Source of the DNA: Streptomyces coeruleorubidus | GTDB taxonomy: Bacteria; Actinomycetota; Actinomycetes; Streptomycetales; Streptomycetaceae | Direction: 5' to 3' | Length of the DNA: 64,000 bases | Assembly (NCBI RefSeq): GCF_028885415.1 | Contig: NZ_CP118527.1 | Span: forward strand, 1,240,001 to 1,304,000 | Shown: in pieces, positions 6,714 to 19,611 of the stretch | Numbering within the stretch: position 1 is the stretch's first letter | Layout: the number at the start of each line of letters is the position of its first letter | Made by a program: the position numbers and the translations under genes | Notes under the pieces: generated by a model | What the model saw: the letters and a program-made list of their open reading frames with translations, nothing else | Told to the model about the DNA's origin: nothing | Databases searched by the model: none

Positions 6714-7676
6714 TCAGGCCTCGCCGGCCGTCGCGAGCTGTGCCAACTGGCTCTGCCACGGCGGATTGGGGCCGGCAACCGAGCAGGTCAGGGCCGCCAC
6801 CTTCACGGCGAACAGGCAGGCTGCCTCGACATCGGCGAGACGCAGGTTCGTCAGCCTGCCGCCGAGGAGTCCGTGGGCGCCGAGGTGGTGCAGCAGTCCG
6901 GCGGTGAAGGAGTCCCCCGCACCGACCGTGTCGACGACCGGTGTCGCCACCGCGGGCATCTGCACCCGCTCCCCGTCGAGTGAGGCCACAGCGCCCTCGG
7001 CGCCGCGGGTGATCACGACGAGCCGCACCCCCGCCGCATGCCAGGTGTCGCACGCCTGCTCGGGGGGCGTCCCGGGCAGCAGGAGATCCAGGTCGTCCTC
7101 GCTCAGCCGCAGCACGTCCGCGAGGTCGCACCAGTGCGCCAGCCGGCCGCGGTAGACCTGGGGATCCACCAGGAGCGGCCGGACGTTGGGATCGATGCTG
7201 ATGGTGGCCTGAGGCGAGGATGCCGCCAGGAATTCCTCCACCACCGCCGCGCCGGGCTCACGGACCAGCGCCAGTGACCCGGTGTGCACACAGGCGGCTT
7301 CGGAGAGCTCCACCCTCGCCAGTTCGCCGGGGGTCCACTGCCAGTCGGCCGTGTTCTGCGCATGGAACGAGAACGCCGCCTGCCCCGCGGCATCCAGTTC
7401 CGCCACGGCCAGCGTGCTGGGCTCGACGGCAGCGACGGCGTACGACAGGTCTACGCCGGACTCTTCCAGGTGGGCTCGGAACAGGCGCCCGAACACGTCG
7501 CCGGACAGGCGCGTAAGGAAGCGGGCCGGGGTGCCGAGGCGGGCCAGGGCCACCGCGGTATTCGCAGGTCCGCCGCCCGGCAGCACCCGCAGGGCGAGTT
7601 CGTTCGAGGCGCTGGCCGGTTCGGTGAAGGCGTCGGCGACACACTCTCCCAGAACGGTGATCTGACGCGGGCTCAT
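6714..7676 (-). CDS. PfkB-family fructokinase
   Basis: 320 residues from ATG 7676, preceded by a GAGAG-type ribosome site. An upstream start at 7844 would run through the operator region and adds no family sequence. PfkB hallmarks are GGGPANTAVALARLG (34-48) near the N-terminus and the C-terminal signature DTVGAGDSFTAGLL (249-262) with catalytic Asp255. The family phosphorylates sugars at a primary hydroxyl with ATP. Next to a levanase and a sugar importer, fructose to fructose phosphate is the natural reading. It is divergent from the importer across a shared operator region. Ribokinase activity cannot be excluded by sequence alone. Confidence 0.87.
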   Translation of the reverse strand: MSPRQITVLGECVADAFTEPASASNELALRVLPGGGPANTAVALARLGTPARFLTRLSGDVFGRLFRAHLEESGVDLSYAVAAVEPSTLAVAELDAAGQAAFSFHAQNTADWQWTPGELARVELSEAACVHTGSLALVREPGAAVVEEFLAASSPQATISIDPNVRPLLVDPQVYRGRLAHWCDLADVLRLSEDDLDLLLPGTPPEQACDTWHAAGVRLVVITRGAEGAVASLDGERVQMPAVATPVVDTVGAGDSFTAGLLHHLGAHGLLGGRLTNLRLADVEAACLFAVKVAALTCSVAGPNPPWQSQLAQLATAGEA

Positions 7677-16535: not shown

Positions 16536-17696
16536 GTGCACCCCACCCGCAAGGCGGCCGTGACGGCCACCGCTCTCCTGGCCTCGGCCACCATCACCCT
16601 CGCCACCGGCTGCGAGAGCGGTTCCACCACCGGCGGATCCGTCTCCGCCTCCGCCAGCGGTTCGTCCAGACCCGGCTGCCCCACCGCCCTCGCCGAGGCC
16701 AGGCGGGCCGTCAAGACGGCCGAGGACGTCAACGCCCCCTGGTCCGGGCCGACCAGCGGGCCCCGGGCCGTCCCCGACAAGACCATCGTCTACATCGCCC
16801 AGACCCTGACCAATCCCGGCGTGGCGGGCGTCGCCAAAGGCGTCCAGGAAGCCGCCGGCGTCATCGGCTGGCGCGTCCGCACCCTCAACGGCCAGGGCAC
16901 GCCCGCCGGAATCAAGGCCGCCTTCGCCGAGGCCCTGGCCCTCAAACCCGACGGCATCGTCATCGGCGGCTTCGATCCCACCTCCACCGCCGCACAGGTC
17001 GAGCAGGCGAACGCGGACGGCATCCCGCTGATCGGCTGGCACGCCGTCGCGGCTCCCGGACCCAGCGAGAACCCGAAGCTGTTCAGCAACATCACCACCA
17101 GGGTCGAGGAGGTCGCGAAGATCAGCGCCGATTGGATCATCGCCCGGTCCGACGGTCGCGCGGGCGTCGTCCTGTTCACCGACGCCTCGATCCCCTTCGC
17201 CAAGCGCAAGTCGGATCTGATCAAGAAGGAACTCGCCACCTGCTCCGGCGTCGAGCTGCTGAGCTACGAGAACGTCCCCATCCCGCAGGCGGGCAGCCTC
17301 ACCACCAAGAGGGTCTCCACCCTGGCCTCCCGCTTCGGCGACAGGTGGACCCATTCCGCCGCCATCAACGACCTGTACTTCGACCACGCGGGCCCCGCCC
17401 TGCGTGCCGCGGGCAGGCAGGGCGACGGCGCACCGTTCAACATCGGGGCCGGTGACGGCGACCCCTCGGCCTTCCAGCGCATCAACAGCAAGGAGTTCCA
17501 GGCCGCCACCGTGCCCGAACCGCTGTCCGAACAGGGCTGGCAGATCATCGACGAGTTCAACCGTTCCTTCGCCGGCAAGTCGGCCAGCGGATACGTCGCC
17601 CCCGTCCACGTCACCACCGCCGCCACCAGCGGCGGCGCACTGTCCTGGGACTCCGAGGGCTACCGCGAGGCCTACCGCAGGATCTGGGAGAAGTAG
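16536..17696 (+). CDS. orphan sugar-binding lipoprotein
   Basis: 386 residues. The signal peptide (KAAVTATALLASATITLATGC) ends at a lipobox cysteine near residue 26, followed by a Gly/Ser linker. The mature domain is a Peripla_BP_4 fold: KTIVYIAQTLTNPGVAGVAKGV, ALKPDGIVIGGFDP, IPLIGWHAV, GVVLFTDASIPFAKRKSD and a C-terminal QGWQIIDEFNR helix. No permease or ATPase gene is adjacent, so it either serves a transporter encoded elsewhere or is a sensor. The ligand is unknown. The mature protein is longer than the importer protein at 7922. Confidence 0.82.
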   Translation: MHPTRKAAVTATALLASATITLATGCESGSTTGGSVSASASGSSRPGCPTALAEARRAVKTAEDVNAPWSGPTSGPRAVPDKTIVYIAQTLTNPGVAGVAKGVQEAAGVIGWRVRTLNGQGTPAGIKAAFAEALALKPDGIVIGGFDPTSTAAQVEQANADGIPLIGWHAVAAPGPSENPKLFSNITTRVEEVAKISADWIIARSDGRAGVVLFTDASIPFAKRKSDLIKKELATCSGVELLSYENVPIPQAGSLTTKRVSTLASRFGDRWTHSAAINDLYFDHAGPALRAAGRQGDGAPFNIGAGDGDPSAFQRINSKEFQAATVPEPLSEQGWQIIDEFNRSFAGKSASGYVAPVHVTTAATSGGALSWDSEGYREAYRRIWEK

Positions 17697-17779
17697 ACAC
17701 GTAGCACACCGGCGACCGGCTGGACCCGTTCACCAGTGGGGCCGGCCGCGGTGGCACTGGGCATCCACCTGACCGACGT

Positions 17780-18190
17780 ACGATCCTGCGGCAGGGCACC
17801 AAGTCCCGCTCGCAGTACGACCTGGGCACCCAGAAGCTGAGCAACGACCGCAACGACCTGGGCATGGACCCCGGAAGCTCGTGCACGGCCTCAACTACGA
17901 CCGGCCCGGCACCGGCACCGGCACCGGCACCGAGCCCCTTGTGGGCAATGCCCGCGGCACGTACGCCTGCCCAGCCAACCGCTGACATCCGCTTCCGGGT
18001 CGAAGGCGGCGGCTCCACCATGACGGAGAGGGGGTGCGAGGTCACCGTACCGACCACCACCATGGGTTCGGTGACTGGTGCGCTGCCTACCCTCAACGAG
18101 CCTCTCGCGGCCACCGCCCTGATCGTGGGCATCGGCAGCGCCGTCCCACCCGCGGTCTGCCTCTGGCCGGCAACGCACCGCCCACGCTGA
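17780..18190 (+). pseudogene. eroded coding sequence
   Basis: Between the binding-protein gene and the tRNA, one frame from 17780 encodes about 30 protein-like residues (TILRQGTKSRSQYDLGTQ and LSNDRNDLGMD). After an apparent frameshift near 17870 another frame continues with RKLVHGLNYDRPGTG, crossing a short GGCACC repeat. No single frame spans the region and no ribosome site precedes it. I cannot name the parent family. It is best treated as the remains of a secreted-protein gene. Confidence 0.35.
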
Positions 18191-18242
18191 GGACGAGTAC
18201 CAGCACGTCGTGGTACGGGCCATCTGGAGGGCGCCGGCGTGG

Positions 18243-18318
18243 TGGCGGCGGGGGCAGGTCCTGAACCTGGGGACTGGGTTGTGAGCCCAGCGAGCTACCG
18301 AGGGTGCTCCTGCCCGCG
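18243..18318 (-). tRNA. initiator-like tRNA with anticodon CAC (possible tRNA pseudogene)
   Basis: Read on the minus strand, this 76-nt stretch folds as a tRNA derived from initiator tRNA-fMet. The D arm (GAGC/GCTC with TCGGTA) and anticodon arm CTGGG-CTCACAA-CCCAG match fMet tRNA except that CAT is CAC (18281-18283). Initiator hallmarks kept are the unpaired 1:72 position (C:C) and three G:C pairs at the base of the anticodon stem. It ends in CCA (18243-18245). Deviations are A at position 8, one extra D-loop base, C:C at 7:66 and 49:65, a short variable loop and discriminator G73. CAC would read GUG codons. It lies 41 bp after the carboxypeptidase stop on the same strand. It may be functional or decayed. 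Confidence 0.6.
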
Positions 18319-18359
18319 CCGGTATCACCAGCGTTCGTTCGAGTGCGCGTCAGCCCAGG

Positions 18360-19298
18360 TCAGTCCCTCTGTGCGCCCGTCGGCAGGGTGCGCAGCCGCA
18401 TGGTGCTCGCCGAGCTGGTGCCGAAGGCGTAGTCCAGCAACTTGGCGGCGTCTGTGTAGCGGTACTGGTCGTTGAGGAGCACGCCGATGACCGTCTTCTC
18501 GTTGCGGGTCGCGGCGAAGACGAGGCAGGGGCCGGACGGCGTGTTGGTGCCCGTCTTCACCCCGATCGCGCCGCTGTACGAGCCCAGCAGCTGGTTGGTG
18601 TTGTACCAGGTGTACGTGCGGGTGCCGCCGGTGCTCGTCGTCGCGTACTGCACGGTCTTCGGCTTCTTCACGATGCCCGCGAACGTCGAGTACTTCATCG
18701 CGCTGCGCGCGAGCTTGGCGAGGTCGCGCGGCGTCGTGTAGTTCGTGTTCTGCGTCGAGTTGCCGTCGAACGAGTCGAAGTGCGTGTTGGTCAGGCCGAG
18801 GGTGCCCGCCTTGGCGTTCATCTTGCTGATGAACGACTTGGTCCGCGCCGAGATGGTCGTACCGGTGCCGAAGGTGTCCGCGAGGGCCATCGCGGCATCG
18901 CAGCCGGACGGCAACAGCATCGCATGGAGCAACTGGCGGATGGAGACCTTGTCGCCGGTCTTGAGATCCGCGGTGCTCGCGCCCTTGGCCGTGACGTAGT
19001 CCCGGTAAGCCTGCTTGATGGTGACCTTCCGGTCGAGGTTCAGGTCGGGGGTGCTCAGCACGACGCGAGCCGTCATGATCTTGGTGGTGCTCGCCATGGG
19101 CCGCTTGGTGTCGGCGTACTTGCTGTAGAGCGTGGAGCCCGTCGCGCTGTTGAGCATGAACGCGCCCTTGGCGCTGACCGAGGGCGCGGTCGCCGCCTGC
19201 GCGGGCGCGGTCAGGGCGCCGCCCGCGAGCAGCGCGCCGGTGGCGCCGGCGACAGCTGCGGCTCTGCGGATACGTACGCCCTTGATGCCGGTTATCAC
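18360..19298 (-). CDS. D-alanyl-D-alanine carboxypeptidase (S11 family)
   Basis: 312 residues from GTG 19298 with GGAG 8 nt upstream; the signal peptide (RRAAAVAGATGALLAGGALTAPAQA) follows directly. Penicillin-binding motifs are SxxK = STTK (70-73, nucleophile Ser70) and KTG = KTG (248-250). The SxN motif reads SGC (131-133), so the usual Asn is Cys. The enzyme trims the terminal D-Ala from peptidoglycan stem peptides outside the membrane. A 25-residue Ala/Thr-rich linker precedes the catalytic domain and no C-terminal membrane anchor is seen, so it is probably secreted. Confidence 0.88.
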   Translation of the reverse strand: MITGIKGVRIRRAAAVAGATGALLAGGALTAPAQAATAPSVSAKGAFMLNSATGSTLYSKYADTKRPMASTTKIMTARVVLSTPDLNLDRKVTIKQAYRDYVTAKGASTADLKTGDKVSIRQLLHAMLLPSGCDAAMALADTFGTGTTISARTKSFISKMNAKAGTLGLTNTHFDSFDGNSTQNTNYTTPRDLAKLARSAMKYSTFAGIVKKPKTVQYATTSTGGTRTYTWYNTNQLLGSYSGAIGVKTGTNTPSGPCLVFAATRNEKTVIGVLLNDQYRYTDAAKLLDYAFGTSSASTMRLRTLPTGAQRD

Positions 19299-19611
19299 TA
19301 TGAACGCTCCGAGTGTGCCAAATGTCAGATGGCATGTGCGAAATGAAGCGGGGGGAGGCGCTAAGGAGACCCGCGGGGGACATCGAGGGTTGTACGGCGG
19401 GCGGAAGTAATTCCGGGCGACCTGCGAGCGGCCGCTGCGGCGGAGGCCACCCGGACCTGACAGGTCCGAACCCTGTAGACCGGGGCAAGTACAGATCAAA
19501 GATCCATTTGATTACGTAGAGGACCGGTCTGCTCCTGTCCGTCGGTATCCGAGGCATCCGGCACCGCATCGCCCGCAGGGGCATCGAAGCATCCGGTGCC
19601 GGTGCTCGCGG
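19299..19611. other. promoter region of the carboxypeptidase gene
   Basis: No gene is supported here. Two small symmetric elements are visible: GGACCTGACAGGTCC (19453-19467) and ATCAAA/TTTGAT arms (19495-19500 and 19507-19512). They could be operator sites but are short. The segment around 19495-19520 is AT-richer than its surroundings and is a likely promoter. Confidence 0.3.

Follow-up and report, generated by a model that had tools for sequence, protein, structure and literature searches.

Does this genome carry an initiator tRNA matched to GUG start codons? The question is raised by a tRNA-like sequence that combines the body of an initiator tRNA with the anticodon CAC. The sequence lies in the window, by which we mean the whole stretch of DNA analyzed here, 64,000 nt long and covering positions 1,240,001 to 1,304,000 of one 9.41 Mb contig, which its relatives place in the genus Streptomyces. 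GUG is recognized as a start by the normal CAU initiator as well, and ordinary tRNA-Val(CAC) genes of the genome occur in two places among the scanned loci (L015 and L016). Judged by titles and the openings of abstracts, we recognized no literature report of a natural CAC initiator or a dedicated GUG initiator, nor of the locus described here. Our analysis suggests that this locus is very probably a decaying and probably silent pseudogene of an initiator tRNA, in which the change to CAC looks like just another of the many mutations of a dead gene and not like a new way of starting translation at GUG. The features of the region are listed in Table 1.

Table 1. Features at and around the tRNA-like locus, with positions given in the window.
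Feature	Position	Strand	Remarks
Initiator (fMet) tRNA copy, very probably decayed	18243..18318	-	76 nt, CAC anticodon, CCA encoded
Probable remnant of the -10 box	18330..18335	-	AACGCT where intact copies usually have TANNNT at equal distance
Probable remnant of the 5' half of the terminator hairpin of CCA-encoding initiator genes	18226..18238	-	Flank similarity
Spacer from the carboxypeptidase stop codon to the tRNA copy	18319..18359	-	41 nt; similarity to the tRNA-less genome G098 ends at about 18339
Peptidase S11 (D-Ala-D-Ala carboxypeptidase) gene, upstream on the same strand	18360..19499	-	PF00768, E 1.6e-44; start taken from the open reading frame list
Periplasmic binding protein gene, neighbor on the other side	16536..17696	+	PF13407, E 1.4e-20

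Initiator-Derived Body of the Locus

Read on the minus strand from 18318 to 18243, the locus has the sequence CGCGGGCAGGAGCACCCTCGGTAGCTCGCTGGGCTCACAACCCAGTCCCCAGGTTCAGGACCTGCCCCCGCCGCCA. Its coordinates and strand, CAC anticodon, encoded CCA, unpaired C1:C72, and three G:C pairs in the anticodon stem were all read in the sequence as the first-pass annotation had given them, and so were the C:C oppositions at 7:66 and 49:65, the A at position 8, and the one extra base in the D loop. Further changes are C15, G58, a discriminator G73 instead of A, and a variable loop of 3 nt versus 5 nt in intact initiators; A14 is retained. Pairing is complete in the D stem (4/4) and the anticodon stem (5/5) and reaches 4/5 in the T stem and 5/7 in the acceptor stem, where 1:72 is open as in initiators. 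The copy in the window folds into a cloverleaf of -30.7 kcal/mol (z -0.89), which is no worse than the fold of an intact initiator (-29.6 kcal/mol, z -1.12).

Orthologous copies were found in S. swartbergensis and in a Streptomyces genome designated G123. The initiator marks C1 x C72, A11:T24 (an R11:Y24 pair), and three G:C pairs at 29–31:39–41 are retained in this genome and in S. swartbergensis; in the G123 copy, pair 31:39 is G:U. In each of the three copies the anticodon arm has all its pairs, two of them G:U in G123. The S. swartbergensis and G123 copies do not have a cloverleaf as their minimum-energy fold. Two other properties of initiators, the CAU anticodon and near-invariance across species, are absent from the locus.

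When the locus was compared with the whole genome by BLAST, the next hits after the locus itself were three initiator genes with 80–82% identity (E 1.5e-12 to 3.5e-11), all of them assigned a CAT anticodon by ARAGORN. This likeness is far beyond chance and upholds the earlier claim of an initiator-derived body. Scores were obtained with a covariance model trained on 25 tRNAs from this genome and run with filters off; the intact initiator L033 was in the training set, and L032 and L046 were outside it but have the same body. The locus was the best match in the 64 kb window at 22.5 bits (E 1e-4), compared with 16.5 bits for the runner-up, which rules out a chance resemblance. The runner-up, located at 6804–6867 on the plus strand, has no D arm, lies within an open reading frame of 376 aa, and was taken as a chance match. 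The S. swartbergensis and G123 copies reached 25.5 and 19.7 bits, respectively, and the next match in the eight scored loci reached 11.0 bits. Intact initiators scored 74 bits (L032, L033, and L046), and the variant initiator L043 scored 66.7 bits. The ancestry of the locus from an initiator tRNA is real, but about 50 bits have been lost.

With its default settings, ARAGORN detected no tRNA in the window; at lowered thresholds the locus was missed at 100% and 95% and called as tRNA-Val(CAC) at 90%. The Rfam family RF00005 did not report the locus at its gathering score, a cut-off of 29 bits. At E 10, the locus was not listed in a search of a 271-base stretch, nor was it among the 75 matches in the genome, a search whose loose first look may have skipped it. 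The covariance-model check proposed by the first-pass annotation bore out the locus as the best match in the window, but at some 50 bits below intact initiators and with default ARAGORN and Rfam silent. By our measure of a functional tRNA, at least 29 bits with RF00005 together with a default ARAGORN call, the locus falls short.

Core Positions, Promoter, and Terminator

The L-shape of tRNA is held by U8, A14, R15, and A58, and A14 alone is kept at the locus. T8 and A58, the latter corresponding to column A59 of the first sequence in the 25-tRNA alignment, do not vary among the sampled tRNAs of the genome (25/25), and none of the three copies of the locus has either. Position 58 is G in this genome and in S. 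swartbergensis and C in G123. Common to all three copies are also C:C at 7:66, C15, G73, and the 3-nt variable loop.

The signals around the tRNA body have changed as well. The motif TANNNT is present near -10 in 50 of 51 distinct flanks of intact initiators, a set that was chosen by core sequence match and hence describes canonical genes only, and in none of the three locus copies, which have AACGCT instead. The -10 test is not absolute, since the one exception, L048, is intact and also has no TANNNT. At the 3' side, a hairpin of -23.9 kcal/mol or stronger is found in 51 of 52 intact copies chosen in the same way, and the corresponding values are -13 to -16 kcal/mol in the three locus copies (-13.2 in the window). 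The exception here is L032, an intact gene of this genome, with -9.1 kcal/mol.

The locus thus unites clear homology to a functional tRNA gene with disabling changes in body and signals, as is typical of a pseudogene. The first-pass annotation had hedged that the odd substitutions hint at decay, and the lost core positions, -10 box, and terminator hairpin give that hedge better support. Its headline, a working GUG-matched initiator, is not supported in view of the same losses, the CAT anticodon in G123, and the rarity of the altered anticodon arm, as detailed below.

Distribution, Divergence, and Origin of the Copy

The locus with its flank was found in two of 392 Streptomyces genomes (this genome and G123) and additionally in S. 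swartbergensis. A second search of the genus, with 381 genomes, produced no additional carrier genome; both searches scored two candidates per genome, so that a flank-diverged ortholog could hide behind intact initiators. BLAST of the region against the collected loci returned the copy with its upstream flank only in G123 (L040) and S. swartbergensis (L069). The suggestion to search other Streptomyces genomes beside the carboxypeptidase gene was fruitful to this extent, with a CAC copy in S. swartbergensis, but the G123 copy has CAT. The D-arm pattern, with up to three mismatches allowed, occurred in 103 of 199 genomes (G123 not included) and was exact, among the matches listed, only here. Matches with two or three mismatches look like chance, because a reversed D-arm control gave more matches in most genomes. 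Viral contigs contained no exact D-arm match.

Comparison of syntenic sites showed that G098 and G025 have the same neighbors on both sides and no tRNA copy, with gaps of 129 and 102 nt, respectively; the gap between these neighbors is 458 nt in G123 and 663 nt in this genome. Presence of the copy therefore varies among close relatives, as would be expected of a pseudogene. The similarity of G098 to the carriers stops about 20 nt upstream of the tRNA start, and an insertion into the ancestor of the carriers seems simpler than a deletion in G098. The periplasmic binding protein gene is common to G123, G098, and G025 and was not seen on the S. swartbergensis contig, where the carboxypeptidase gene is present and the sequence downstream differs from that of the other carriers. 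From about position 5233 of L069, the S. swartbergensis sequence is unlike this genome and G123, so that a rearrangement has taken place near the tRNA copy.

The anticodon is CAC in this genome and in S. swartbergensis and CAT, accompanied by C38, in G123. A search for the exact anticodon-arm pattern in which position 36 is not T matched one of the 392 Streptomyces genomes, namely this one, and no viral contig. Over the carboxypeptidase gene, S. swartbergensis is 96.8% identical to G123 and 94.6% identical to this genome at the nucleotide level; longer alignments among the three carriers give 95–96% all round. CAC is possibly ancestral, because two species have it and yet S. swartbergensis is nearer to G123 over the carboxypeptidase gene. 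On these alignments, the common ancestor of the three carriers may already have had CAC, with a reversion in G123, or CAC may be newer than that ancestor.

The tRNA body differs at 4/76 positions between this genome and S. swartbergensis, at 10/76 between this genome and G123, and at 8/76 between S. swartbergensis and G123. The fourfold sites of the carboxypeptidase gene differ at 9/218, 8/213, and 8/220 positions for the same pairs, so that overall the tRNA body diverges at or above the fourfold-site rate, although these sites may be slowed by codon bias. Intact initiators vary far less. An identical 75-nt body is present in 23 of 26 Streptomyces copies (loci L042–L068 without L044), the others being L043, L051, and L065. 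A class-wide search gave a match in 94 of 98 genomes, and the near-full-length matches among those listed are 95–100% identical, with the exception of four tRNA-Pro(CGG). These four, with 79–80% identity, were considered as diverged initiators recurring in other actinobacteria and were discarded as such once their isotype was recognized. Because the body diverges this fast while intact initiators hardly change, the comparison indicates that the copy is not maintained as an initiator. All 11 variable columns of the three copies fall within positions 29–76, the first 28 bases being identical; the hypergeometric chance of this is 0.004 for a split that was picked after the data were seen.

As for the source of the copy, CCA is encoded in the locus and absent from the three intact initiator genes of this genome. 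It is encoded in two of five initiator loci on linear plasmids and not in the other three, and intact CCA-encoding initiators also occur in other Streptomyces contigs and in other actinobacteria. The 3' flank of the locus resembles the 5' half of the terminator of CCA-encoding initiators, and its 5' flank resembles their -10 region. This resemblance on both sides suggests the copying of a gene along with parts of its signals, rather than of a tRNA fragment.

A divergent functional source was sought among plasmids and phages and rejected in both. The tRNA region (18226–18338) matched 87 of 72,556 plasmid records, none at 90% or above, and the highest identity among the 60 matches listed was 81.8%. 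A longer query matched 10 plasmid records at 95–99%; these matches presumably lie outside the tRNA region, because that region alone gives none so high. Phages gave three matching records of 50,697, two in the tRNA region at 77% and 80% and one elsewhere at 92%. An initiator tRNA match is frequent on Streptomyces plasmids, the tRNA-region search having recorded it in 57 of their records. Five plasmid loci (L203, L211, L212, L213, and L214) are all on linear plasmids and have CAT; the body is the standard one in four of them and, in pFRL6 (L203), a variant like that of L043. In L211, L212, and L214, three of the four close-range plasmid loci, the initiator tRNA closely follows a cold-shock protein gene of the same strand.

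Taken together, we propose that a CAT initiator gene, probably of the CCA-encoding type of linear plasmids or other replicons, was copied behind the carboxypeptidase gene in the ancestor of the carriers. Judging from the flank similarity, the copy would have brought part of its promoter and terminator. By comparison with intact copies, it has since lost the -10 box, the terminator hairpin, core positions, and two bases of the variable loop. Most likely the copy is not transcribed as a tRNA and plays no part in initiation. Several observations were counted against plain decay: the invariant 28 bases, the paired anticodon arms, the possibly ancestral CAC, the kept stems, and the cloverleaf fold, together with the intact L048 without TANNNT, the weak hairpin of L032, and the possibly slow fourfold sites.

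Alternative Readings and Comparison with Known Systems

The same observations were weighed for readings other than a pseudogene. The copy could have been co-opted as a tRNA-like element at the 3' end of the carboxypeptidase mRNA, where it would provide an RNase P site or the transcript end, or within a regulatory RNA, with no role in translation. The position of the locus, 41 nt behind the carboxypeptidase stop on the same strand, fits this idea, as do the first 28 bases, invariant across three species. A precedent is tRNA-Other of Bacillus cereus, a pseudo-tRNA for which membership in a larger regulatory RNA has been suggested (PMC3399842). Carboxypeptidase loci were collected by a GTDB scan in which the best 80 were kept, 24 of them counted as Streptomycetaceae from their titles; 13 loci were folded, comprising nine of these 24, S. 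swartbergensis included, and those of four genomes. Nine of these 13 have a strong hairpin (-31 kcal/mol or stronger) after the stop codon, and none was found at 18319–18420 of the window or at the equivalent positions in G123, S. swartbergensis, and G098, which leaves room for a role of the copy at the mRNA 3' end. However, G098 has neither the strong hairpin nor the tRNA copy, which argues that the copy is not needed as a hairpin replacement. Further points against it are that a search of 17690–18420 for a terminator-like site with a T run gave none, that the 3' half of the copy varies, and that the best folds of the S. swartbergensis and G123 copies are not cloverleaves. We regard this co-option as unlikely.

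A working CAC initiator in the lineage of this genome and S. swartbergensis appears very improbable. Such a tRNA would still be made as an RNA and would read GUG and start some proteins there, most likely with formyl-valine, or would compete with the normal initiator at GUG starts. In its favor, CAC sits in a fully paired arm in two species with the initiator marks kept, and E. coli initiators can function with a changed anticodon (PMC2268962), as one bearing the valine anticodon GAC is aminoacylated by ValRS and formylated. By analogy with that initiator, valine would be the expected first amino acid of proteins begun by a working CAC initiator. The loss of U8, R15, and A58, the missing -10 box and strong hairpin, the CAT of the G123 ortholog, and the occurrence of a non-CAT arm pattern in 1/392 genomes all stand against it. 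So does the change of A73 to G73: methionine and valine identity are reported to be split by the anticodon, with A73 a determinant common to both (PMC9976931), and G73 would be expected to weaken charging with either amino acid. If true, this reading would represent a natural dedicated GUG initiator. Fainter still is the idea that the locus is a scar left by a mobile element whose attachment site was a tRNA gene. It would account for the S. swartbergensis similarity that stops shortly past CCA and for the binding protein gene not being found downstream there. However, the gene seems to be there in full, together with parts of its promoter and terminator, and not merely as a 3' end, and this genome and G123 retain the same neighbors on both sides.

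The reading as a decaying pseudogene matters little beyond annotation. It carries the lesson that a changed anticodon in a tRNA-like sequence should be judged alongside the core positions, promoter, terminator, and orthologs.

Among known systems, the locus shares with the Streptomyces initiator tRNA (tRNA-fMet, CAU, RF00005) its ancestry, the D and anticodon stems, the unpaired 1:72, A11:T24, and the three G:C pairs. It departs from that tRNA in CAC, A8, C15, G58, G73, C:C at 7:66, and the 3-nt variable loop, as well as in having no TANNNT -10 box or strong hairpin and a model score about 50 bits lower. The engineered valine-charged E. coli initiator G34C36 likewise joins an initiator body to a valine anticodon, but it is a laboratory mutant and its anticodon is GAC, not CAC (PMC2268962). 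B. cereus tRNA-Other is also a tRNA-like sequence for which a role in translation is not expected; it is reported to be expressed in larger RNAs and to give phenotypes on deletion (PMC3399842). Anticodon/isotype conflicts among tRNA pseudogenes are flagged by tRNAscan-SE 2.0 (PMC8450103). Apart from the invariant first third in the three copies, nothing distinctive was seen to separate the locus from such pseudogenes, with which it shares the body of one isotype and the anticodon of another, a low score, lost core positions, and a patchy presence in relatives.
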